From Bacteroidota bacterium (GTDB taxonomy: Bacteria; Bacteroidota; Bacteroidia; B-17B0; B-17BO), in assembly GCA_025356715.1 (NCBI GenBank), contig JANXRU010000009.1, positions 1-15,258 of the forward strand: a stretch of DNA of 15,258 nt, written 5' to 3'. The position numbers and the translations under genes are program-made. Below are positions 4,875 to 15,258 of the stretch, piece after piece. How positions within the stretch are numbered: the first letter of the stretch is position 1; each line of letters opens with the position of its first letter. The notes beneath the pieces are model-generated. The model saw only the letters and a list, made by a program, of their open reading frames with translations. It was not told the DNA's origin and did not search any database.

Positions 4875-6581
4875 TTACAAACTAATGACTTGTTTTTTTT
4901 CAAGCTTAACTATATAGTTTTTCTTGCATTGAGCCAATCTTGTTTTTGGATTAATAAACTCCGCCGTAAGTCCAGATACTTGGAAATCATAAAATAATTT
5001 ACATTCCTTAATCGTGAAAACAGAATCTATTTGCATTTTTCCAATGCTATCTGTCATTACCCAACCTGAAGTGCTTGGAGAGTCTAAATTAATTTCTTTT
5101 GGCGAACCTAATTCGTTTATTTTACCATTAAAATAAAAATAACCTGAGTTGGTAATTTCCGTATTGTAAACACTAAACTGTTTCACGTTCAATTTATTCA
5201 TGAATTTAGCAATTTCCGAATCTGACTGATAGTTGAAACAAGGGGCGTATAATGCTGTATTTACCATAAAATTAGCCGCACAAATAATCAACACTCCACT
5301 AACTATAATCCTATTATATAATTCCGATTTTAATTTAAATAAGGTAATAATACCAATCAGAAATAAACTGTACGTAATAATTTTAATTAACCAAGATGTT
5401 TCGAAAGCCACAAACATGATGTAGGTACTTATGATAATACAAATAATCCAAACTAAAACCGATAAATATAGCAATACCGATTTCCATTTTAAATTATCTA
5501 ACACATTTACTAAAAAGTTAGAAATAATAACTGCCGCAAAGGGATGAATAATAAAGGTGTAATGAGGCAATTGATAGGATGAGGCTGACAACATAATAAT
5601 AGTAATGATAAAACCTGCAGTAGTAATTACCTCAACGTTATTATAATTTGTTTTAAATGCTTTTAATTTAGTTTTAACATCGTATACCATGGCTATGATA
5701 AAAATAAGAGGCCAAGGCAATAAACTCCATAATAAACTATGATATAGAAAAAATGGATCAGGGAAATTTGAGGGTAAAGGGTTGTCGCCAAAAATACGCC
5801 CGAAGCTTTGAGTCCAATAAAAGAACTTTACACCCGATGGACTTTGTATAAAATAACTATTTATTTCGGGATGTAAATCGAATTGTAAGTATAAACCATA
5901 AGTCATAGGTGCTAAAATAACACCTATGATAACAAGTACTAATAGATACTGCCATTTTAAGAAAGCTTTCCAATGGCGCTTATAAATAAAATCACTACCA
6001 AAAGCAATAATAGGTAACATTAAACCGATGGGGCCTTTACTTAACATAGCAAACCCAATACCTATGGCTCCCCACACAATATACTTTAATTTACCAGTTT
6101 GATTAAATGCAGCTATTTGCCATAAAGAAAATAAAACAAAGCCCGTTAATAAAGTATCTGTCCTTACATCGTGGTGCATTAAAAAATAAGCTTGGCAGCC
6201 AGCAGCTATTAAAGCAGCATTGATTGCTACCTTTTTGCTATAATACAATAAACTAAAGCGGTATAAGGAGTATAAGCCCAAAATAGAAACTAAGAAAGAA
6301 GGCAATCTGTAAGCAAAATCATTAATACCAAAAACATGAAAACTCAATACAGCCGACCAAAACAAAAAAGGTGGTTTATCTAAATAATCATGGCCCTTAT
6401 CATACACTTGCAAATAGCTTTTTGCAGCAAACATATCCTTAGACATATTTGCATATTGAGGTGCATCAAAATCGATTAAATCATTAAAAAAACCAGTGAT
6501 ATAGATAATGAAAATAAGGGCAAAACAACCAAAGGTTATTAAACTGTTTCTGTTTTGAAAATTAAGCTGTAATGATTTCAT
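4875..6581 (-). CDS. GT39 / ArnT-like polytopic glycosyltransferase
   Basis: Inner-membrane glycosyltransferase of the PMT/ArnT (GT39, GT-C fold) group, which transfers a sugar from a polyprenyl-phosphate carrier to a periplasmic acceptor such as lipid A, a glycan or a protein. The 568-residue protein starts with a hydrophobic helix (about 14-32). The first periplasmic loop carries DFDAPQYANMSKDM (37-50), whose acidic residues match the GT-C catalytic position, and YLDKPPFLFW (66-75), the family's typical K-P-P motif. About ten further hydrophobic segments follow up to about residue 445, then a soluble C-terminal domain of about 120 residues. The acceptor cannot be deduced from the neighbours. 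A TAnnTTTG match lies 22 bases upstream. No neighbouring gene points to a particular glycan pathway. Confidence 0.88.
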   Translation of the reverse strand: MKSLQLNFQNRNSLITFGCFALIFIIYITGFFNDLIDFDAPQYANMSKDMFAAKSYLQVYDKGHDYLDKPPFLFWSAVLSFHVFGINDFAYRLPSFLVSILGLYSLYRFSLLYYSKKVAINAALIAAGCQAYFLMHHDVRTDTLLTGFVLFSLWQIAAFNQTGKLKYIVWGAIGIGFAMLSKGPIGLMLPIIAFGSDFIYKRHWKAFLKWQYLLVLVIIGVILAPMTYGLYLQFDLHPEINSYFIQSPSGVKFFYWTQSFGRIFGDNPLPSNFPDPFFLYHSLLWSLLPWPLIFIIAMVYDVKTKLKAFKTNYNNVEVITTAGFIITIIMLSASSYQLPHYTFIIHPFAAVIISNFLVNVLDNLKWKSVLLYLSVLVWIICIIISTYIMFVAFETSWLIKIITYSLFLIGIITLFKLKSELYNRIIVSGVLIICAANFMVNTALYAPCFNYQSDSEIAKFMNKLNVKQFSVYNTEITNSGYFYFNGKINELGSPKEINLDSPSTSGWVMTDSIGKMQIDSVFTIKECKLFYDFQVSGLTAEFINPKTRLAQCKKNYIVKLEKKQVISL

Positions 6582-6602
6582 TTTAAATACTAATACAAGC
6601 TA

Positions 6603-6610
6603 CAAATGTA
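6603..6610 (-). promoter_or_regulatory. Possible -7 promoter element for the glycosyltransferase gene
   Basis: The minus strand reads TACATTTG, an exact TAnnTTTG match, 22 bases before the ATG at 6581. Transcription would start near 6597 with a very short leader. A small palindrome, GGTTTA-attaa-TAAACC (6622-6638), lies just upstream and could be a regulator site. A -33 TTG at ideal spacing is not evident. Confidence 0.4.
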
Positions 6611-6648
6611 TTGTTTTTATCGGTTTAATTAATAAACCTATTTTTCAC

Positions 6649-6683
6649 AAAAAAGCTCCTTCAGTATCAACTAAAAGAGCTTT
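6649..6683 (-). terminator. Intrinsic terminator after the lipoprotein gene
   Basis: On the minus strand AAAGCTC (6683-6677) pairs with GAGCTTT (6658-6652) across an 18-base loop. Six consecutive T residues (6654-6649) overlap and follow the 3' arm. It lies 20 bases beyond the stop codon at 6704. The stem is short with three G-C pairs, so termination may be partial. Confidence 0.55.
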
Positions 6684-6703
6684 AATAATGGGTTGTTATT
6701 TAA

Positions 6704-7093
6704 TTATCTTTTTTTATGACTTACTTCGGCATTTTCTTTAATAAATACCATATCACTACCCGCCATTAACTTAGTAATACTAGCAACAAATTCCGTTTGT
6801 TCAGATTTTGATAACTCCGTTAAGTTAAAACAATAATCAGACTCTCCTTCTCTACCCCAATGTTCCGCCTTGTAGCTGGGCTTTTTAGCGTGAGCTTCAA
6901 CAAATGCAATTAAGGCAGTTGTTTTCTCTCTGTCGGGTCCAGAACCCTTGCTAATAAAAGTAACTACTAATCTATATTTAACAGGTGTCGCATCTTCTGT
7001 TTTTGGAGTGCTTGCTGTTTCTTGTTTTGCTTTACAAGATATGGCCGAAATAACTAAACAACTAATTGCTGCTAAAAAGAATAATTTTTTCAT
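6704..7093 (-). CDS. Small predicted lipoprotein of unknown function
   Basis: I do not recognise the family. The 129-residue product starts MKKLFFLAAISCLVISAISC, a lipoprotein-type signal with the probable lipidated cysteine at residue 20. Next come a low-complexity Thr/Pro/Lys/Glu linker (about 21-37) and a compact domain of about 90 residues that begins KYRLVVTFISKGSG and ends in a basic HKKR. It lacks known enzyme motifs. The gene is single, followed by a probable terminator. It is divergent from the orphan gldN across a 244-base region full of palindromes, so the two could share control. A role alongside the T9SS module is only guilt by association. Confidence 0.75.
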   Translation of the reverse strand: MKKLFFLAAISCLVISAISCKAKQETASTPKTEDATPVKYRLVVTFISKGSGPDREKTTALIAFVEAHAKKPSYKAEHWGREGESDYCFNLTELSKSEQTEFVASITKLMAGSDMVFIKENAEVSHKKR

Positions 7094-7126
7094 AATATTA
7101 ATTTATTGTTTTTTAATTGTCTTATA

Positions 7127-7181
7127 GTTTACCCAGTTTAATTATTCGTTTTTGTACTTAATGCAAACATGGGTATTTCAT
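7127..7181 (-). repeat. 55-bp palindromic element, left copy
   Basis: Inverted copy of 8314-8368, with 49 of 55 bases identical. The first 19 and last 16 bases of the element are invariant, and all six differences fall in the middle 20 bases. Within the copy, TACCCA+GTTT (7130-7139) pairs with AAAC (7165-7168) and TGGGTA (7170-7175) around a single bulged A, giving a 10-bp stem with a 25-base loop. The copy lies between the divergent lipoprotein and gldN genes. It could be a cis-regulatory or RNA element, a REP-like repeat or one end of a cassette. Confidence 0.85.
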
Positions 7182-7182
7182 G

Positions 7183-7195
7183 TGTAAATTTTACA
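7183..7195. promoter_or_regulatory. Possible operator palindrome
   Basis: TGTAAA-t-TTTACA is a perfect 6-bp dyad around one central base, immediately beside the left 55-bp element in the divergent region. Its size and symmetry suit a dimeric regulator. AT-rich DNA gives such dyads by chance, so this is tentative. Confidence 0.3.
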
Positions 7196-7238
7196 AGTAT
7201 TTTATTCGTCAAAAATAATATTTTTTATGGGTTTTTCA

Positions 7239-7253
7239 TTACTATGGTAGTAA
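7239..7253. promoter_or_regulatory. Possible second operator palindrome
   Basis: TTACTA-tgg-TAGTAA is a perfect 6-bp dyad with a 3-base centre, about 85 bases before the gldN ATG. It differs in sequence from the 7183-7195 dyad, so the two need not bind the same protein. Confidence 0.3.
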
Positions 7254-7303
7254 ATAATTTATTAAATAAACCTAAAATGTATCTTTTTTAAGAAGTAACA
7301 CTT

Positions 7304-7332
7304 ATAAGTTTTAACTAACCACTAAAACTTAT
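7304..7332 (+). promoter_or_regulatory. Hairpin overlapping the gldN translation start region
   Basis: ATAAGTTTTA (7304-7313) and TAAAACTTAT (7323-7332) form a perfect 10-bp stem with a 9-base loop, ending six bases before the ATG at 7338. In mRNA it would cover the ribosome landing area, which suggests translational control of gldN. It has no T-tract suitable for termination. Confidence 0.5.
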
Positions 7333-7337
7333 GAATC

Positions 7338-8195
7338 ATGAAAAATCAAATCCTTCTTTTCTGTCTACTGTTATTTAATGGTATTATTCGTTGCTATGCG
7401 CAAGACCAATTACCTCCAAATTCTAATACTAATCCTGATAACCCATGTGGCATTTATAATAAAGAAAATAGTGTACAACGACGCCAAATTTCTTACACAC
7501 ACCTTAGGGAGTGCGATGTCTCTTGGGAAAAACGAATTTGGCGTGATATAGATATGCGCGAAAAGCAAAACCAACCTCTCTATTATCCCATCGAACCAAA
7601 TGCTTGTCGCACATCCCTTTTTCAAGCACTTACTAAACAAATACTCAATAATAAAATTAAAGCCTTTGCTGATGAAGATTTTTTAATTACCTATGAGCTT
7701 TCGGCTATTCGTAAAAAACTCATATTGATTGATACCGTAGATCAAATTATTTATGATGAATTAGGAGAACCTATTACTGTTCGTTTACCAGTAATTGATT
7801 CCACTAGCATTTATGCGCGTATATTAAAATATAGATTAAAAGAAGATTGGTTTTTTGACAAACAAAAATCGAGTTTAGAAGTTCGTATTATTGGCATTGC
7901 TGCCTACGAATACATTGAAGACAAAGAAGCCTACAAAGAACTATTTTGGGTTTATTTTCCATCTTGCCGCCCCTATTTTGCCGTTAATGATGTATATAAT
8001 TTTAAAAACGATGCCGAGCGAAGGAGTTTAGATGATATATTTTGGAAAAGACAATTCTCTAGCACCATTGTTAAAGAAAGTAACGTACACGACAGGTATA
8101 TTATAGAGTATGAAAAAGGTATTGACGCCTTGGTGGAATCAGAAAAAATTAAATTAGATGTGTTTAAATGGGAACACGATTTATGGAATTATTAA
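7338..8195 (+). CDS. gldN: Orphan GldN/PorN type IX secretion component
   Basis: GldN/PorN is a periplasmic T9SS subunit that forms a ring with the lipoprotein GldK/PorK beneath the outer membrane. It is needed for secretion and gliding. The 285-residue protein has a signal peptide (residues 1-21, ending in CYA before Q). The family signatures follow: HLRECDVSWEKRIWRDID (55-72), QPLYYP (79-84), KEDWFFDKQ near 168, and FWVYFPSCRPYFA to DDIFWKRQFSS near 203-245. It ends with FKWEHDLWNY. It is slightly shorter than typical GldN. The usual partners gldK, gldL and gldM are absent on both sides, so this is a detached copy, probably a paralogue of the operon copy. It is flanked by inverted 55-bp elements and followed by two sensor phosphatases. 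A hairpin sits just before its ATG. Confidence 0.9.
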   Translation: MKNQILLFCLLLFNGIIRCYAQDQLPPNSNTNPDNPCGIYNKENSVQRRQISYTHLRECDVSWEKRIWRDIDMREKQNQPLYYPIEPNACRTSLFQALTKQILNNKIKAFADEDFLITYELSAIRKKLILIDTVDQIIYDELGEPITVRLPVIDSTSIYARILKYRLKEDWFFDKQKSSLEVRIIGIAAYEYIEDKEAYKELFWVYFPSCRPYFAVNDVYNFKNDAERRSLDDIFWKRQFSSTIVKESNVHDRYIIEYEKGIDALVESEKIKLDVFKWEHDLWNY

Positions 8196-8257
8196 ATTTA
8201 GAAGGAGCTCCAGCCCTATCCAAAGGAGATGAAGCTAGAACTATCAGATTGTTTTTT

Positions 8258-8265
8258 TATATTTG
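8258..8265 (+). promoter_or_regulatory. Possible -7 promoter element for the phosphatase pair
   Basis: TATATTTG is an exact TAnnTTTG match in the gap after gldN. Transcription would start near 8272 and give a leader of about 115 bases that contains the whole right 55-bp palindromic element. No convincing -33 TTG at ideal spacing. Confidence 0.4.
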
Positions 8266-8312
8266 AGGATATAATACCATTAGCCAATATAAATTAGAGT
8301 CTAAAAACCACA
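8260..8312 (+). repeat. Dispersed intergenic repeat, copy 2
   Basis: Partner of 4788-4838, sharing ATACCAT (8274-8280) and AATATAAATTAG (8286-8297) at identical spacing, with weaker similarity on both sides. This copy ends directly against the right 55-bp palindromic element and overlaps the predicted transcription start region. Confidence 0.45.
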
Positions 8313-8313
8313 T

Positions 8314-8368
8314 ATGAAATACCCATGTTTGCCTCAAGCACAAACACAAATGATTAAACTGGGTAAAC
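8314..8368 (+). repeat. 55-bp palindromic element, right copy
   Basis: Inverted partner of 7127-7181. TACCCA (8320-8325), a bulged T and GTTT (8327-8330) pair with AAAC (8356-8359) and TGGGTA (8360-8365), preserving the same bulged hairpin as the left copy. The differences between copies are confined to 8333-8352, the loop. It ends 18 bases before the preferred start of the first phosphatase gene, where it would be a structured 5' leader. Confidence 0.85.
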
Positions 8369-8386
8369 CATATGATAATAAAAAAT

Positions 8387-10699
8387 ATGAAAAAGCTATT
8401 TTATTTTAAATTATTTGGCTTCTTGTTTATAAGTCATAGTGTATATGCTCAAAATATTGATTCTTTAAAGCTAGCGCTAAAAAATGCCAAGAACGACACG
8501 ACTAAAATTAATTTATATATCGCTATTAGTGAATGGTGCGACTTAAATGAAATTATAGATTATGCAAACCCAGCGGTTGAGTTATGCGAGAAAAATTTAA
8601 AAAAATTTACTACTAAAACTAAACTAACAAAAGGAGAGTTATATTTAAAACATTTTTATATGATAAACCTTGCCGCATCATATAATAATCTCGCCTATTT
8701 TTATGGAAACTATGATGGAGAGAAAATCAAAAACTTAGTCTACTTTAAAAAAAGTATTTCTATTTTAGAAAACCTATTAAAAGATAACCCTACTGGAAAT
8801 GAGGCTATCAATATTAACCAAGGACTTAGTTCAGGATTAAGCAACATGGGAGTACTCTACGATCAATTAGGAGATACTCCAAATGCATTAGAGAACTACT
8901 TTAAAAGTTTAAAAATACGAGAAAAAATAAAAGATAAAGAAGGTATTGCAATAACTCAAAGTAATATAGGAGTGGTTTATTATAAACTAAAAGATTATAA
9001 AACCGCTTTACTTTTTTATTTTAAAGCTTTAAAATTACAAGAAGAAATCTCGGATAAAATAGGCATTGCACAATCACTAAATAATATTGGCGCTTTATAT
9101 GAAAATCAAATTGATCCTTCTTGCCACCAATCTTCCGAAGAATGCTTCTTAAAAGGAAAATTAAACGCTTTAGATTATTATAGAAAAAGTTTAAAAATAA
9201 ATGAGGAAATAACAGAAAAATCAGGAATTGCACAAGTGTTAGGAAATATTGGGTTCTTATATTATAATTTATTTAAATTCAACAAAAAAACAAATAACAA
9301 AATTGCTTGTGATACGCTATACCATAATGCAATTATGTATTACGACAAGAGTATTGCTATTTATGAGAAATTACATGAAATACGCAATCTTAGTTTTACC
9401 ATAAATAATAAAGCCACATTATTATTTCATAACAATGAAGTAATCCCTTCTAAAATTCTAGCAGAGAAATGTTTAGAAATGTCAAAAAAAATGGGAAAAC
9501 CTGAAAACATCCAAAGAGTTAGTTTATTACTTAGTAATATCTATTCCAAAATGGGAAATTATAAATCCGCCTATGAAATGGAAATTCTGTACCATAATAT
9601 GAGCGATAGCATTAGTAGCGAAAACAATCGAAAATCTTCAATACAAAAAAGTTTTCAATATGAATATGATAAAAAAGTTATTGCTGATAGTATAAGAAAT
9701 TTTAAAGAAAAAGAAGTATCACAAGCTAAACTATCAGCCAGTGAGGCCAGTTTAAAACAAGAAAAAACACAACGCTTTGCTTTGTATGGAGGCTTATTAT
9801 TAGTATTGGTATTTGCTGGTTTTATGTTTAATCGATTTAAAGTAACTCAAAAACAAAAGCAAACCATTGAGTTAAAAGAAAAAGAAACACAATCCCAAAA
9901 TCTAATCATTTCACAACAAAAACACATAGTAGAAGAAAAGCACAAAGAAATTACGGATAGCATTAACTACGCAGAGCGTATACAGCGAAGCTTGTTGGCT
10001 AGTAAAGAATTGCTCAACAATAATTTAAAAGAACATTTTGTTTACTTTCAACCAAAAGATGTTGTTAGTGGGGATTTTTATTGGGCTGCAAATTTAAGTA
10101 ATGAAACCTTTGCATTAGTAACAGCAGATAGTACAGGCCACGGCGTACCGGGAGCCATTATGAGTATCCTTAATATATCATGTTTAAAAGAGACCATTAA
10201 AGAAGGCATTTTAGAGCCTTCCAGTATATTAAACAACACCCGGAAATTGATTATTGAAACTCTTAAAAAAGACGGAAGTGCGGAGGGCGGAAAAGATGGA
10301 ATGGATTGTTCCTTAATTTCTTTTAATTTTAAGAATCAACAAATGACTTATGCAGCTGCCAATAACCCAATTTGGATAGTTCGAGAAAAGCAATTATTAG
10401 ATTTTCCCCCAGATAAAATGCCTATTGGTAAACATGATAGGGATTCTGTTTCATTTACTCAACATACTATTGATTTGCAAAAAAACGATGTGGTGTATTC
10501 CTTAACGGATGGTATGCCCGACCAATTTGGCGGGCCAAAAGGCAAAAAATTCATGTACAAACAACTGAAAGAATTGTTAATTTCCATTGCGCATTTACCT
10601 ATGCAAGAACAAAAAGAAAAACTGTCTACAGCATTAAATAATTGGAAAGGTGATTTGGAACAAATAGATGATATAACTTTGATAGGAGTGAGAATTTAA
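8387..10699 (+). CDS. TPR-sensor SpoIIE/PP2C-family phosphatase, first paralogue
   Basis: Predicted membrane-anchored signalling phosphatase: periplasmic TPR sensor, one helix and a cytoplasmic PP2C (SpoIIE/RsbU) serine phosphatase that would dephosphorylate an anti-anti-sigma-type partner. I prefer the ATG at 8387 over 8372 because it gives a clean signal peptide (residues 1-21, ending VYA). The 770 residues comprise TPR repeats from about 80 to 400, a charged linker, a helix at 464-485, a coiled coil to about 540 and the phosphatase from 545. Metal-site aspartates are present: SGDFYW (Asp563), ADSTGHGVPGA (Asp581), LTDG (Asp708) and DDITLIG (Asp761-762). A loop insert with two cysteines (CHQSSEEC) interrupts one TPR. 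It has its own promoter-like site and lies 3 bases before its paralogue. No anti-sigma or STAS partner is visible in the window. Confidence 0.88.
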   Translation: MKKLFYFKLFGFLFISHSVYAQNIDSLKLALKNAKNDTTKINLYIAISEWCDLNEIIDYANPAVELCEKNLKKFTTKTKLTKGELYLKHFYMINLAASYNNLAYFYGNYDGEKIKNLVYFKKSISILENLLKDNPTGNEAININQGLSSGLSNMGVLYDQLGDTPNALENYFKSLKIREKIKDKEGIAITQSNIGVVYYKLKDYKTALLFYFKALKLQEEISDKIGIAQSLNNIGALYENQIDPSCHQSSEECFLKGKLNALDYYRKSLKINEEITEKSGIAQVLGNIGFLYYNLFKFNKKTNNKIACDTLYHNAIMYYDKSIAIYEKLHEIRNLSFTINNKATLLFHNNEVIPSKILAEKCLEMSKKMGKPENIQRVSLLLSNIYSKMGNYKSAYEMEILYHNMSDSISSENNRKSSIQKSFQYEYDKKVIADSIRNFKEKEVSQAKLSASEASLKQEKTQRFALYGGLLLVLVFAGFMFNRFKVTQKQKQTIELKEKETQSQNLIISQQKHIVEEKHKEITDSINYAERIQRSLLASKELLNNNLKEHFVYFQPKDVVSGDFYWAANLSNETFALVTADSTGHGVPGAIMSILNISCLKETIKEGILEPSSILNNTRKLIIETLKKDGSAEGGKDGMDCSLISFNFKNQQMTYAAANNPIWIVREKQLLDFPPDKMPIGKHDRDSVSFTQHTIDLQKNDVVYSLTDGMPDQFGGPKGKKFMYKQLKELLISIAHLPMQEQKEKLSTALNNWKGDLEQIDDITLIGVRI

Positions 10700-10702
10700 C
10701 AA

Positions 10703-12925
10703 ATGAAAAATAACATCCACATAGTTTTTTTCATTTTCTTATTACTGGTAGGAAGTGCTTTATATTCACAGAGTATAGATTCTTTAAAAATTGAGCTCAA
10801 TAATGCAAAACAAGATAGTACACGCTGTAAAATTCTAAACACGATGATTGAAATAGAGGCTGATGATCAAATTTGGCCTAAATACAATGATCAATTAAAA
10901 TCCATTTGTGAAAAAAATTTAGTAAGCAGCCCTACTCTTAACAAAGGAACACTTAATTCCACTCGCCTCTTCTACTTAAAATACTTAGCATCTGCCCTTA
11001 ATAATGTTGGGTACTTTTATAATACACAAGGTAATACTACCAAAGCTTTAGATTACTTTCATAAGAGCTTACTAATTCAGGAGGAAATTAAAGACCAGAA
11101 AGGTATAGCCGAATCTTTAAATAATATTGGGGTAATTTATCAAAACCAAAGTGACATCCTTCAGGCGTTAGAATGTTACCATAGAAGCCTTAGAATTCAA
11201 GAAAACATAAAAGATAAAGGAGGAATTGCTTCTTCCTTAAACAATATTGGCGCTATTTATCAAAATCAAAACAACAACGATAAAGCGTTAGAGTTTTTTA
11301 ATAAAAGTTTAAAAATACAAGAAGAAATAAATGACAAAATTGGTATAGCCTATACACTAAATAATATTGGGAGAATATATGATTCGAAAAACGACATACA
11401 AAAAGCATTAGAATATCATTACCAAAGTTTAAATGTAAGAAAAGCTATTAATGACAAAGTAGGAATAGCAAACTCTTTAAATAATATTGGTGCCATTTAT
11501 GTAAAACAATCAGAATCAAATTCAACCATTAAAACTGATTCATTATTAAAGAAAGCATTAGATTGCCACGAAGAAGGTTTAAAACATCAAAAAGAAATTG
11601 GTGATAAAAAAGGAATTGCCTATTCCTTAAACAGCATCGCTGGAATTCAATTAAAACTTAATCAAATTGAATTAGCTTTACAAAACGCCAAACTAAGCTT
11701 ACACATAGCGCAAGAATTAGGCTATCCTATAAGTATAAGCGTTGCCAGTAAATTATTAAGTGAAATATATGCTCAATTAGGTTCTTATAAGGAAGCTTTT
11801 GAAATGCAATTATTATATAAACAAATGGCTGATAGTTTAAACAATGAAATTAATAGGAAAGCAGCTATTCAAAAAAGCTTCCAATACATTTATGGCAAAA
11901 AATCGGCAGCTGATAGTGTGAGGGTAATAGAAGAACGTAAGGTTTTTGATGTACAAATAAAACAAGAAAAAACCCAACGAACAGCACTGTATATTGGCAT
12001 AGGATTAATTGCACTATTCACAGCGTTTATATACAATAGATTTAGAATAACCAGGAAACAAAAAGAAATTATTGAACTACAAAAGACAGAGGTTGATAAG
12101 CAAAGGGAGTTAGCTGATAGTAGACGAGATATTGCAGAATCGCAAAAAGAAATTATTGAGGAAAAACAAAAAGAAATTTTAGATAGTATACATTATGCTA
12201 AACGCATACAACAAGCCATGCTCACCAGTGAAAGTTATTTTAATGACCACTTAAAAGCAGACTGTTTTATTTTTTATAAGCCTAAAGATATCGTAAGTGG
12301 TGATTTCTATTGGGCAATTGCTCAAAATCATAAATTTTACATTGCTACGTCAGATTGTACTGGTCATGGAGTACCAGGAGCCTTTATGAGTTTATTGAAC
12401 ATCAATTTTTTAAATGAAAATGTAGTTGAACGAGGCATATATGACCCAGCCAAAATATTAAATGAACAACGTAAAGAAATTATTAATGCACTAAATCCGA
12501 AAGGCACTGAAAATTCAAAAGATGGAATGGATTGCGTTCTTTGCGCCTTTGATTTAGAAAACCATAAATTAGATTTTGCAGGTGCAAATAATCCAGTATG
12601 GTTAATTAGGGATAATAAATTAATAGAATATAAAGGCGATAAAATGCCAGTTGGTAAACACAATAGAGATCAAGAATCCTTCAATCTAAAAACCATCGAC
12701 TTGCAAAAAGGTGATGTTATTTATACTTTAACAGATGGTTTCTCTGATCAGTTTGGTGGACCAAATGGTAAAAAGTTTATGAGCAAAAACTTAAAAGCAC
12801 TATTATTAACTAACGCTCATTTACCAATGACTGAACAAAAAATCTTATTAGAAACCACCTTTAAAAATTGGGTTGGTAATTTGGAACAAGTGGATGATGT
12901 TACATTAATTGGGGTGAGAATTTAA
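10703..12925 (+). CDS. TPR-sensor SpoIIE/PP2C-family phosphatase, second paralogue
   Basis: Same architecture as the gene before it, and clearly a tandem duplicate. It has a signal peptide (about 1-22, ending LYS before Q) and a TPR array (about 93-345) of unusually regular 40-residue units with the pattern GIAxSLNNIGxIYxxQ. A helix at 428-447 and a coiled coil rich in Glu/Lys/Gln (about 448-505) follow, then a SpoIIE/PP2C domain to the C-terminus at 740. Catalytic aspartates are Asp534 (SGDFYW), Asp551 (SDCTGHGVPGA), Asp678 (LTDG) and Asp731-732 (DDVTLIGVRI). The two phosphatase domains are much more alike than the sensors, which suggests one output and different inputs. It begins 3 bases after the preceding stop, so the genes are probably translationally coupled. 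It converges on the adhesin gene with a 26-base gap. Confidence 0.88.
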   Translation: MKNNIHIVFFIFLLLVGSALYSQSIDSLKIELNNAKQDSTRCKILNTMIEIEADDQIWPKYNDQLKSICEKNLVSSPTLNKGTLNSTRLFYLKYLASALNNVGYFYNTQGNTTKALDYFHKSLLIQEEIKDQKGIAESLNNIGVIYQNQSDILQALECYHRSLRIQENIKDKGGIASSLNNIGAIYQNQNNNDKALEFFNKSLKIQEEINDKIGIAYTLNNIGRIYDSKNDIQKALEYHYQSLNVRKAINDKVGIANSLNNIGAIYVKQSESNSTIKTDSLLKKALDCHEEGLKHQKEIGDKKGIAYSLNSIAGIQLKLNQIELALQNAKLSLHIAQELGYPISISVASKLLSEIYAQLGSYKEAFEMQLLYKQMADSLNNEINRKAAIQKSFQYIYGKKSAADSVRVIEERKVFDVQIKQEKTQRTALYIGIGLIALFTAFIYNRFRITRKQKEIIELQKTEVDKQRELADSRRDIAESQKEIIEEKQKEILDSIHYAKRIQQAMLTSESYFNDHLKADCFIFYKPKDIVSGDFYWAIAQNHKFYIATSDCTGHGVPGAFMSLLNINFLNENVVERGIYDPAKILNEQRKEIINALNPKGTENSKDGMDCVLCAFDLENHKLDFAGANNPVWLIRDNKLIEYKGDKMPVGKHNRDQESFNLKTIDLQKGDVIYTLTDGFSDQFGGPNGKKFMSKNLKALLLTNAHLPMTEQKILLETTFKNWVGNLEQVDDVTLIGVRI
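10982..11611 (+). repeat. TPR-encoding tandem DNA repeats, 120-bp period
   Basis: Successive units begin at 11102, 11222, 11342 and 11462, exactly 120 bp (40 codons) apart. A preceding, more diverged unit starts near 10982. The next unit starts at 11612 after a 30-bp insertion encoding about ten Ser/Asn-rich residues. The codons for LNNIG are almost unchanged in each unit. This is the long TPR class rather than the 34-residue one. The near-identity suggests recent amplification, and copy number may vary between strains. Confidence 0.85.
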
Positions 12926-12951: not shown

Positions 12952-15258
12952 TTATCTAATAATAAGCATGTAGCCTGGAAAATCTTTCTGATTGTCTTTA
13001 TTATCAACCACTTTAATAATATAAAAGTAGGTAGCATCGGGGCAATTTGTTCCATTAGATGCTTTCCCATCCCACGATTTATTTAATGCATCCCAACTAA
13101 ATAGCAATTGTCCCCATCGGTTATAAATATATCCTTCTGCTGATTTTGCACCTGATATTTTAATATGAAATGCGTCATTAACCCCATCTCCGTTTGGTGT
13201 AAATACATTTGGCACTTCTATAATTAATTCATCATCCACAATAATTGTTAAGGTTGTATCATCACTACATCCACTCACCGCATCTGTTACCGTAAATACA
13301 ACATTAAAAGTGCCGCCAGTTGTAAATATATGGTTTGGATTAATAACTGATGTGCCAGTTCCATCACCAAAACTCCAATTATAAGTATCAGACAAACTAA
13401 CCCCAAAACTACTATTTGTAAAATTTACACTCAAAGGAGCGTGTCCTGTATACACATCGGCGCTAGCTATTGCATGTATGTTATAATAACCCGCCGTTAC
13501 AGGAGTAATAATGCTTGTGCAACCATTTAAAATTGCTTGTGCATAGTAAGTATATAAGCCATTCCCTGAAGGATTTGGATGATAAATAGATGAATTTCCT
13601 AATAATAATGAACTTGCAGACTGGTCGGAATACCAATTAACAGTAGCCCCTGCTCCAAAATTAGCAGTAAGAGTTAATGTTCCTCCAGTACAGGTATTGT
13701 CACCTGAGTTAAAAATTAAAATAGGAGTCTGGTTAATTAATACAGCAACTGTACTTGATGCCGTGCAATTATTTGAATCTGTAACAGTCATAGTATAAAT
13801 ACCAGATGCTGTTAATGTCGCATTTGTTATGGTTGGATTTTGAACACCTGAAGAAAAACTATTAGGGCCCGCCCAAATATAACTTCCACCACCAGTTCCT
13901 AATAAACTGAATGTATTTCCAGTACAAACCATTGTTGCACTTGATGACGCATTAATAACTAATGGCGCATAAACATTAACAGGAACTATGTCTTGTAACG
14001 AAGAACAACCATTTCCATCAGTTACCGTTACACTATAATTTCCAATATTAACAGAAGATGCATTCGTAATAGTTGGATTTTGATTATTAGAAGTGAATGT
14101 ATTTGGGCCAGTCCATGTATAACTTGTTACACCTGTACCTCCAGCAATTAAATTAATTGGACTTCCATTACATACATTAGTAGCTGTTGCTATTGCTGTA
14201 AATGTTGGTAAAGCATTAACCGAAACACTTGTTACTGCATTAGAACTACATCCTGTTAAAGAATTGGATACCGTTACAGAATATTGACCAGCATAACTGG
14301 TTCCTGCATTAGTAATAGTTGGTGTAGCTAAATTAGAAGTAAAACCATTTGGCCCTGACCATGTATAATTTGTTCCACCACTAGCTGTTAGATTAATGGC
14401 AGTATTTGCACAAATAGATGCAGGATTAGCAAATGCTGATGCTACTGGATTTGAATTAACTGTAACTGCTACAGTAGTAAAGTTTGTACAGCCATTAGCA
14501 TTCGTTACATTTAATTGATAAACACCAGCTACACCGTTTGGTATAACAGGATTTTGAACATTAGATGCGAAAGAACTGGGTCCACTCCATGTATAAGTTA
14601 TTGCTGTTGATGCAAATAATTTAATTGTGTCGTTAGCACAATAACTAATTTTAGAAGCCGTTGCCGAAGGGTTAGGTAAAGGATTAATTGTTACCGTTAC
14701 ATTTGTTGCTGGCCCACTACATCCTGCGGAAGTTGTAAATACAGAATATACTCCTGACATAGGAGTTGTTGCAGGAGAAATAATTGGATTTTGTATGGTA
14801 GTGGTAAAACTATTTGGCCCATTCCAATTATAAGTACCACTACCATTTGCAAATAAGTTAATAGTGCCTCCTTGACATAAACTATTAGCTGTGGCACTGG
14901 CTGTTGGCGCAGCTGGTGCGCCTGGATTAATAATACTATAAGGGCCAAATAAATTAATACAACCAAAGCCATCTTTTACCTGCAAATTATAAGTTCCAGC
15001 TGGTTGACTATTTAAATTAGGAGTTGAACCAACATTAACGTTAGAACTGTTAGTCCAAGTGTACGTTAAAACAGGGGCTCCCGTAACATTGACACTTGTG
15101 ATTGAGCCTGTAGATGCGCTACAATTACTTGGTGCTATTGTTGGCGTAACAGTCATTTGAGGCAAACTGCGAACCGTAACGGTTGCTGTTCCAACATTAG
15201 TACATGTAGATATCGCTGTTCCAGTTACGCTATAAACAGTAGTTAAAGTAGGTGTAAC
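12952..15258 (-). CDS. T9SS type B-sorted repetitive adhesin, N-terminus off the contig
   Basis: C-terminal 768 residues of a large secreted surface protein. The frame is open to position 15258, so a TTG at 15165 is not the start. From the N side there is the end of one repeat (TTVYSVTGT), then a SprB-like unit ending in AGTYNLQVKDGFGC. Five tandem Ig-like units of about 80 residues follow, each with a C-x-G/N motif, a Y-x-W-x-G-P core, QNPTITNA or similar, and GxYSVTVTDxNGC. After these come a divergent Ig-like unit, a PKD domain containing YNWSFGDGTG (about 13235-13470) and the type B (CHU_C) sorting domain with VPNVFTPNGDGVNDAF and YNRWGQLLF. The sorting domain predicts export by T9SS. Its role is probably adhesion, gliding or surface binding. 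Signal peptide and full length are unknown. Confidence 0.9.
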   Translation of the reverse strand, partial: VTPTLTTVYSVTGTAISTCTNVGTATVTVRSLPQMTVTPTIAPSNCSASTGSITSVNVTGAPVLTYTWTNSSNVNVGSTPNLNSQPAGTYNLQVKDGFGCINLFGPYSIINPGAPAAPTASATANSLCQGGTINLFANGSGTYNWNGPNSFTTTIQNPIISPATTPMSGVYSVFTTSAGCSGPATNVTVTINPLPNPSATASKISYCANDTIKLFASTAITYTWSGPSSFASNVQNPVIPNGVAGVYQLNVTNANGCTNFTTVAVTVNSNPVASAFANPASICANTAINLTASGGTNYTWSGPNGFTSNLATPTITNAGTSYAGQYSVTVSNSLTGCSSNAVTSVSVNALPTFTAIATATNVCNGSPINLIAGGTGVTSYTWTGPNTFTSNNQNPTITNASSVNIGNYSVTVTDGNGCSSLQDIVPVNVYAPLVINASSSATMVCTGNTFSLLGTGGGSYIWAGPNSFSSGVQNPTITNATLTASGIYTMTVTDSNNCTASSTVAVLINQTPILIFNSGDNTCTGGTLTLTANFGAGATVNWYSDQSASSLLLGNSSIYHPNPSGNGLYTYYAQAILNGCTSIITPVTAGYYNIHAIASADVYTGHAPLSVNFTNSSFGVSLSDTYNWSFGDGTGTSVINPNHIFTTGGTFNVVFTVTDAVSGCSDDTTLTIIVDDELIIEVPNVFTPNGDGVNDAFHIKISGAKSAEGYIYNRWGQLLFSWDALNKSWDGKASNGTNCPDATYFYIIKVVDNKDNQKDFPGYMLIIR
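13750..14960 (-). repeat. Tandem Ig-like repeats within the adhesin gene
   Basis: Five units recur about every 230-246 bp. The QNPTITN-type segment, read on the plus strand as variants of GTTGGATTTTG, falls near 13831, 14071, 14317, 14546 and 14781; the first two are exactly 240 bp apart. Each unit keeps two cysteines and a Y-x-W-x-G-P core. The contig ends shortly beyond this array, as expected if further repeats defeated assembly. Confidence 0.85.

Follow-up and report, generated by a model that had tools for sequence, protein, structure and literature searches.

Why should a gene for GldN, a ring subunit of the type IX secretion system (T9SS), lie apart from gldK, gldL and gldM and directly upstream of two genes for tetratricopeptide repeat (TPR) proteins with SpoIIE-type PP2C phosphatase domains? 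This question is raised by a stretch of 15,258 nucleotides of Bacteroidota DNA (GenBank assembly GCA_025356715.1, contig JANXRU010000009.1), hereafter the window. The original prediction took the arrangement for a detached, conditionally used T9SS subunit tied to a signalling unit that senses secretion or envelope status. The answer developed here is that the locus probably combines two independent things, namely an alternative T9SS subunit gene, gldN2, for which the phosphatase genes are incidental neighbours, and a non-autonomous mobile repeat that inserts 5' of start codons. The start-codon repeat flanking gldN2, rather than the second GldN, is the more interesting feature of the locus.

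Repeat units in front of start codons

What the original prediction overlooked is an inverted repeat of 84 nt and 83% identity, whose arms (7110-7193 and 8302-8385) stand on either side of gldN2. Each arm is a copy of an element 73-104 bp long, copy A ending at the start codon of a putative lipoprotein gene (lipo129) and copy B at that of the first TPR-SpoIIE gene (Table 1); gldN2 itself is element-free before its start. A further stretch, 7227-7239 (reading ATGAAAAACCCAT on the reverse strand), lies some 45 bp upstream of copy A and partially matches the element's 5' end, perhaps as the trace of a decayed unit. The layout of the unit can be written as ATGAAATA[G/C]CCATGTTTGC...AAACTGG[C/G]TA.ACCATATGACAA..TAAAAAACAATAAT...ACAT, and some copies (in L134, L137, L144 and L135) carry in their loop region a palindrome, TCCCGATAGCTATCGGGA, that is apparently a nested repeat.

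A search of 121 sequences for the core of the window repeat, with up to three mismatches, returned the window's own two copies alone. That the repeat is private to the window can nevertheless be rejected, since a covariance model (R1) finds the element at E<=1e-4 in 51 of 87 genomes, these being the "family" of the metagenome-assembled genome G002 (the "order" gives an equal number). A blastn search with 152 bases around the first arm had matches in 38 of them, with nine candidates scored in each. The R1 counts are lower bounds, as the best 48 candidates per genome were scored under strict filters: they come to at least 46 in G084, 42 in G082 and 38 in G081, and eight genomes have ten matches or more. 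The units also form head-to-tail arrays, the longest with six (L135).

The position of the units was surveyed at 100 loci drawn from the best-scoring matches, some orthologous pairs included, which together hold 145 units arranged in 102 arrays. Of these arrays, 84 directly abut an ATG with which an open reading frame begins (ORF; at least 60 aa, or at least 30 aa if running off the fetched stretch); among the other 18, the junction is unreadable in three, and in several the gene starts slightly further on. Among the 99 readable junctions, ATGAAA accounts for 87, followed by ATGAAT (7), ATGACA (3), ATGGAA (1) and ATGTGA (1), as against 313 ATGAAA among the 1148 first ATGs of ORFs of at least 150 aa (p 1.7e-36). 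At the 12 other junctions the gene-proximal unit, which in two cases is the last of two, begins with TGAAATA all the same (11 with ATGAAATA and one with TTGAAATA), and ATGAAATA opens 80 of the 102 arrays, 11 having no recognisable start. This end is therefore part of the element, and the start codon is the gene's own. The genes thus preceded, named by eye from their N-termini, include lepA, gapA, pgk, gcvT, gcvH, pyrH, nuoN, pepP and those for outer-membrane proteins. A bias toward secreted proteins was considered and rejected: by a crude rule, the N-terminus is hydrophobic in 50 of 84 genes with the element and in 253 of 326 background ATGAAA ORFs, a difference that runs contrary to such a bias.

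Filled and empty sites can be compared directly at nuoN. In G082, the 80 bases preceding the unit agree with those preceding the start codon in G075 at 75 of 81 columns and in G084 at 73 of 81, with alignment scores of 67 and 63 (shuffles for G075 have a mean of 6.9 and a maximum of 18), whereas the unit's own end fails to align to the empty sites, scoring 3. The unit was thus gained or lost precisely at the start codon, and the coexistence of filled (G082) and empty (G075, G084) sites at one locus is what marks a mobile repeat, subject to a caveat on the flank given below. In all, the element precedes nuoN in G082 and G040 and pepP in G084 (three units), G038 and G010, the nuoN of G040 and the pepP of G010 coming from the R1 search and a further comparison. 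Among 60 nuoN and pepP loci that were fetched, it is present in L169, L198 and L199 alone, and the other 57 are without a match at E<=0.01. In front of the pepP of G038, a TACTTTAG box, similar in our view to the -7 promoter element of Bacteroidota, stands upstream of the unit; judged by eye, its spacing resembles that found in several empty orthologues, which suggests that the unit is transcribed as a leader.

The units further share a stem, TA[N]CCA.GTTT/AAACTGG[N]TA, that pairs in 97.3% of cells across 26 copies (alignment A4, which omits nine of the 35 rows of A3, GTGC-type ones among them). Its pair 9-55 occurs as GC in 16, CG in 6 (the form of the window copies), UA in 2 and AU in 1, with none broken in 25 of 25 cells. 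The covariation score of the stem was reached by none of 500 shuffles, and sliding the stem columns by 1 to 3 lowers pairing to 17-52%; an inner helix and a helix involving CATATG are weakly supported. One base of this pair also sets whether the frame ATG AAA TAN reads TAG, TAC, TAA or TAT, and as the TAG base thus varies with its partner, it is the pairing that is conserved and not a short ORF.

As to what might move the units, a Y1_Tnp domain (PF01797) is present in 9 of 14 genomes, with none in G005, G073, G084, G021 and G085. Bacteroidetes have a subclass, 2.6, of REP-associated tyrosine transposases (RAYTs; REP, repetitive extragenic palindrome) with defined motifs, according to PMC6006769, and by our own assignment one of two RAYT-like families in these genomes appears to carry similar motifs. 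The genes of the second family are, in several of the loci L338-L363, flanked by palindromes of their own (e.g., GCAGGATTTGCAATCCTGCGG), which constitute a different repeat system. Beside Y1/RAYT genes, the best element match in 19 loci has an E of 1.5, which is at chance level, and 30 further loci have none at E<=5. Mobilisation by Y1/RAYT genes of these two families was rejected, there being neither significant co-occurrence with the element nor adjacency to it above chance level. Carriage by phages or plasmids was likewise set aside: two exact element patterns have no matches in the viral_contigs set, and one element copy has no blastn match in the plasmid or phage sets.

A second GldN and its neighbours

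The original prediction was right in reading a full-length GldN with no gldK, gldL or gldM nearby. The window protein scores 207.5 bits against PF19841 (cut-off 23) and 191.4 bits against TIGR03523 (cut-off 85.9), and solved GldN/PorN chains align to it within residues 40-272. None of GldK, GldL and GldM is encoded among the ten window ORFs scanned, a 192-aa ORF at 912-1490 lying outside that scan, and within these ten the gene is hence not the last of a gldKLMN operon in the manner of GldN/PorN.

A GldN match exists in 84 of the 87 genomes. From the best 120 of 2724 homologous proteins, 33 were aligned with the window GldN, to which they are 57-82% identical. Copies of the window clade accompany another gldN match in 11 of the 87 genomes (G001, G002, G028, G029, G031, G053, G071, G072, G079, G083 and G085), and in four of these (G002, G029, G031 and G053) the other gldN was seen in the operonic setting next to gldM, the locus L029 being assigned to G029 from matching coordinates. 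In a tree of 70 rows, 12 second-GldN copies, the window's included, are separated from 37 operonic copies by a single change (support 100/99). The window gldN is thus supported as a member of a second clade outside gldKLMN, and the first half of the earlier proposal, that of a detached subunit, largely stands. "Detached" is not universal, as in L115 (8384-12022) gldN2 lies one OmpA-family gene from gldKLMN, a GldO-like arrangement that may be ancestral. At the level of the class, a search at E<=1e-100, which weaker orphan copies would escape, matched 6 of 395 drawn genomes, namely G002 and five with operonic copies. No GldN was found in the viral contigs, and the plasmids returned one match, of 29% identity, from Parabacteroides.

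The surroundings of gldN2 fall into several types, with uvrA, carA, der, purL and cysS being named by eye from N-termini, without a search. A uvrA-carA-der block is shared by L002, L111, L112 and L114, with part of the gene set in L117; a cysS/M28 block is common to L116, L118 and L029; and an OMPP1/FadL gene lies downstream of gldN2 in L113 and L120. In L116, gldN begins 47 bp into the stretch near a contig end, and the upstream gene falls outside the data. From its membership in this family, GldN2 most likely provides the T9SS ring with an alternative subunit, a role comparable to that proposed for GldO in F. johnsoniae.

The two phosphatase genes are also as first described, in tandem and with intact metal sites. 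Both proteins exceed the PF07228 cut-off of 25 bits (76.9 for TPR-SpoIIE 1 and 67.8 for TPR-SpoIIE 2) and possess the conserved PP2C aspartates, located in the first by alignment to 6k4e and in the second by eye from the pairwise alignment; the two are 43% identical, and their genes are 3 bp apart. A signal peptide and one transmembrane helix were read by eye, and from their sequences the proteins could be periplasm-sensing. For TPR-SpoIIE 1, ATG 8387 is the more likely start than 8372, because the element boundary sits there. Next to TPR-SpoIIE 2, a gene that continues beyond the window (12952-15258, minus strand) encodes a large protein with Ig/PKD repeats and a T9SS sorting domain of type B. 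At the other end, positions 1-69 and 91-159 form a 91% inverted repeat with a 21-nt spacer, which may be an artefact of the contig end; the NAD kinase ORF beside it seems to be truncated at its N-terminus. The window has no tRNA and no Rfam family at the gathering threshold.

Table 1. Features of the window discussed in the text
Feature	Position	Strand	Evidence
lipo129, putative lipoprotein gene, 129 aa, copy A at its start	6704..7093	-	ORF list
Element copy A, 88 bp, beginning with its own ATGAAATAC and ending at the base that precedes the lipo129 start codon	7094..7181	-	nhmmer E 3.3e-16 (model seeded from copies A and B)
gldN2, GldN/PorN, 285 aa, outside gldKLMN	7338..8195	+	PF19841, TIGR03523, clade placement
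Element copy B, 73 bp, shortened tail, ends at ATG 8387 of TPR-SpoIIE 1	8314..8386	+	nhmmer E 1.1e-18 (same model)
TPR-SpoIIE/PP2C protein 1	8387..10699 (ORF list start 8372)	+	TPR and PF07228, 6k4e match
TPR-SpoIIE/PP2C protein 2, tandem paralogue	10703..12925	+	TPR and PF07228

Proposed mobility and its alternatives

The other half of the original prediction, a module of GldN2 and the TPR-SpoIIE proteins sensing secretion or envelope status, is very unlikely. Its attraction lies in the adjacency itself and in L117, where a TPR histidine kinase and a LytTR response regulator (5526-8636) stand directly upstream of gldN2 on the same strand. Against it, about 190 bp and an element copy separate gldN2 from TPR-SpoIIE 1, and the gldN2 loci of the 11 relatives (11-21 kb, with gldN within 2.1 kb of a contig end in L114, L116 and L120) contain no SpoIIE-like ORF at E<=1e-5; the sole ORF there matching the window SpoIIE proteins does so through the TPR region of the L117 kinase. 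SpoIIE domains are moreover abundant, occurring in 87 of 87 genomes with a median of 30, itself a lower bound, as about 32 best candidates were scored per genome and 39 of the 87 reach that number. The original prediction had itself named such abundance as a ground for doubting the tie. If about 1% of genes encode SpoIIE proteins, which is an estimate, some 2% of genes would have one as an immediate neighbour, and one adjacency in 12 loci is therefore compatible with chance. The operon or module reading was thus rejected on the relatives' neighbourhoods and the abundance of SpoIIE, and the TPR-SpoIIE genes are probably incidental neighbours of gldN2. A literature search on SpoIIE and TPR proteins in gliding Bacteroidetes returned no paper. 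Even less credible is that the 84-nt arms bracketing gldN2 in inverted orientation delimit a segment that flips as a switch, or are the ends of a transposon carrying gldN: they are just 83% identical, they face different genes as ordinary copies of a dispersed element, and the unit is present at many loci without gldN. On the dispersal of the copies, an invertible segment was rejected.

For the element itself, the reading as a mobile repeat is preferred because of its position at start codons, the filled and empty orthologues, the tandem arrays and the covariation of one pair. A unit would enter directly 5' of an ATG, most often one in ATGAAA, leaving the gene's 5' flank upstream and the gene with its own start codon behind a new A-rich leader, and units may follow one another head to tail. 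They would move as DNA with recognition of the hairpin and ATGAAA as target, purifying selection clearing insertions inside genes and gain rather than loss accounting for the empty sites. It is unlikely, if less so than the module, that the element is instead a conserved cis-regulatory leader RNA that co-regulates genes (here lipo129 and TPR-SpoIIE 1) and is gained and lost by recombination. The near-fixed distance from the start codon, the one covarying stem pair and the presence of the element also before the lipo129 homologue of G081 (L139, 56% identity) would fit such a leader, as might minimum free energy z-scores of -4.4 to 0.1 in eight folded copies. What speaks against it is that the target genes, as named by eye, have no evident common function, that occupancy differs between orthologues, that the variation of the TAG base with its partner makes a conserved mini-ORF unlikely, and that no Rfam match overlaps the element in four loci (E<=5) or in the window (gathering threshold), whereby a known RNA family was rejected. 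A bolder proposal, doubtful though better placed than the leader RNA, is that the units form a new family of mobile leader elements whose insertion, by a mechanism of their own, is directed at start codons, the conserved internal CATATG perhaps pairing with the CAT-ATG junction in single-strand recombination; the gene would stay translatable, and a translational-control leader would have spread over housekeeping genes.

Several observations weigh against the mobile-repeat reading. In a control, 2311 ATGAAA sites in large loci fall into 352 in gene-start regions (the first 120 nt of mechanically defined ORFs), 1750 in other coding sequence and 209 in intergenic sequence; 352 of the 561 sites outside other coding sequence are thus at gene starts, so that 63% would be expected where 82% is observed (p 1.3e-5). 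A preference for ATGAAA together with selection explains much of the position, and the excess is moderate. Close matches to empty sites were obtained for nuoN and no other gene. The AT-rich nuoN flank of G082 recurs before nuoN in L218, L223 and L226 (85%, 85% and 79%), inverted relative to the gene in the latter two; among the loci examined it matched nothing but nuoN regions, and may itself be repeat-like, perhaps a further small repeat. The flank in G073, with a 97% identical protein, is barely above shuffles (17.5 vs 17.0), the pepP flanks agree modestly (L198 scores 15.5 with L196 and L192, against shuffle maxima of 7.5-10.5), and most other filled and empty pairs listed are at shuffle level; it is also possible that the empty sites arose by loss instead of gain. 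As for the stem, one pair alone covaries, two of five measures do not stand out from the shuffles (reached in 467 and 376 of 500), and no consensus structure was obtained with RNAalifold on the 35-row alignment. With regard to a mobiliser, the two RAYT-like families occur in 18 of 51 genomes with the element versus 9 of 36 without and in 27 of 51 versus 13 of 36 (Fisher p 0.35 and 0.13). In addition, neither Y1_Tnp nor either RAYT query has a match in three genomes that carry 18, 19 and 46 copies matching the element. In the other part of the reading, the suggested function of gldN2 is read from its family membership.

If the mobile-repeat reading is correct, repeats settling before the starts of essential-looking genes (by eye lepA, pgk and pyrH), which are left readable, would amount to a natural rewiring of translation, and the element could serve as a model of site-selective insertion before genes. 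T9SS rings with alternative subunits, in turn, become a testable idea in these Bacteroidota through the second GldN clade.

Comparison with known systems

Insertion sequences of the IS200/IS605 group have a hairpin next to an end and insert at specific targets. The present element likewise has a hairpin near its end, and target-specific insertion of that kind is one possible mechanism (compare PMC6006769); it differs in that no transposase is linked to it and one hairpin is supported. A second likeness is to REPs, which are short, structured, dispersed and in some cases tandem, and some of which lie at the N-terminal end of annotated ORFs, as PMC3733652 describes; in the same paper, the uni-REPs of two species lie near the 3' end of the upstream ORF, with a variable downstream distance. 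The element is similarly short, structured, dispersed and partly tandem (PMC3733652, PMC6006769). It differs in lacking, by eye, the GTAG/CGTC tag, in its length of 73-104 bp and in mostly abutting the start codon, and it neither flanks the Y1/RAYT genes examined nor significantly co-occurs with RAYT-like genes in the manner of the REP/RAYT system. Among the papers listed by literature searches, no description of such a start-codon repeat was recognised.

Among the proteins, the C-terminal domains of the TPR-SpoIIE pair resemble the SiaA-type PP2C phosphatases, matching NF038263 and, in the first protein, 6k4e; the TPR region takes the place of the SiaA N-terminus, and the scores are 169 and 181 bits against an equivalog cut-off of 700. 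The nearest parallel to gldN2 is GldO of Flavobacterium johnsoniae, which, according to PMC9127263, is a paralogue adjoining gldN and partly redundant with GldN. As with GldO, GldN2 is a second GldN; the difference is that gldO adjoins gldN, whereas gldN2 is found elsewhere in 10 of the 11 relatives (in L116 as seen from one side only) and one gene away in L115.

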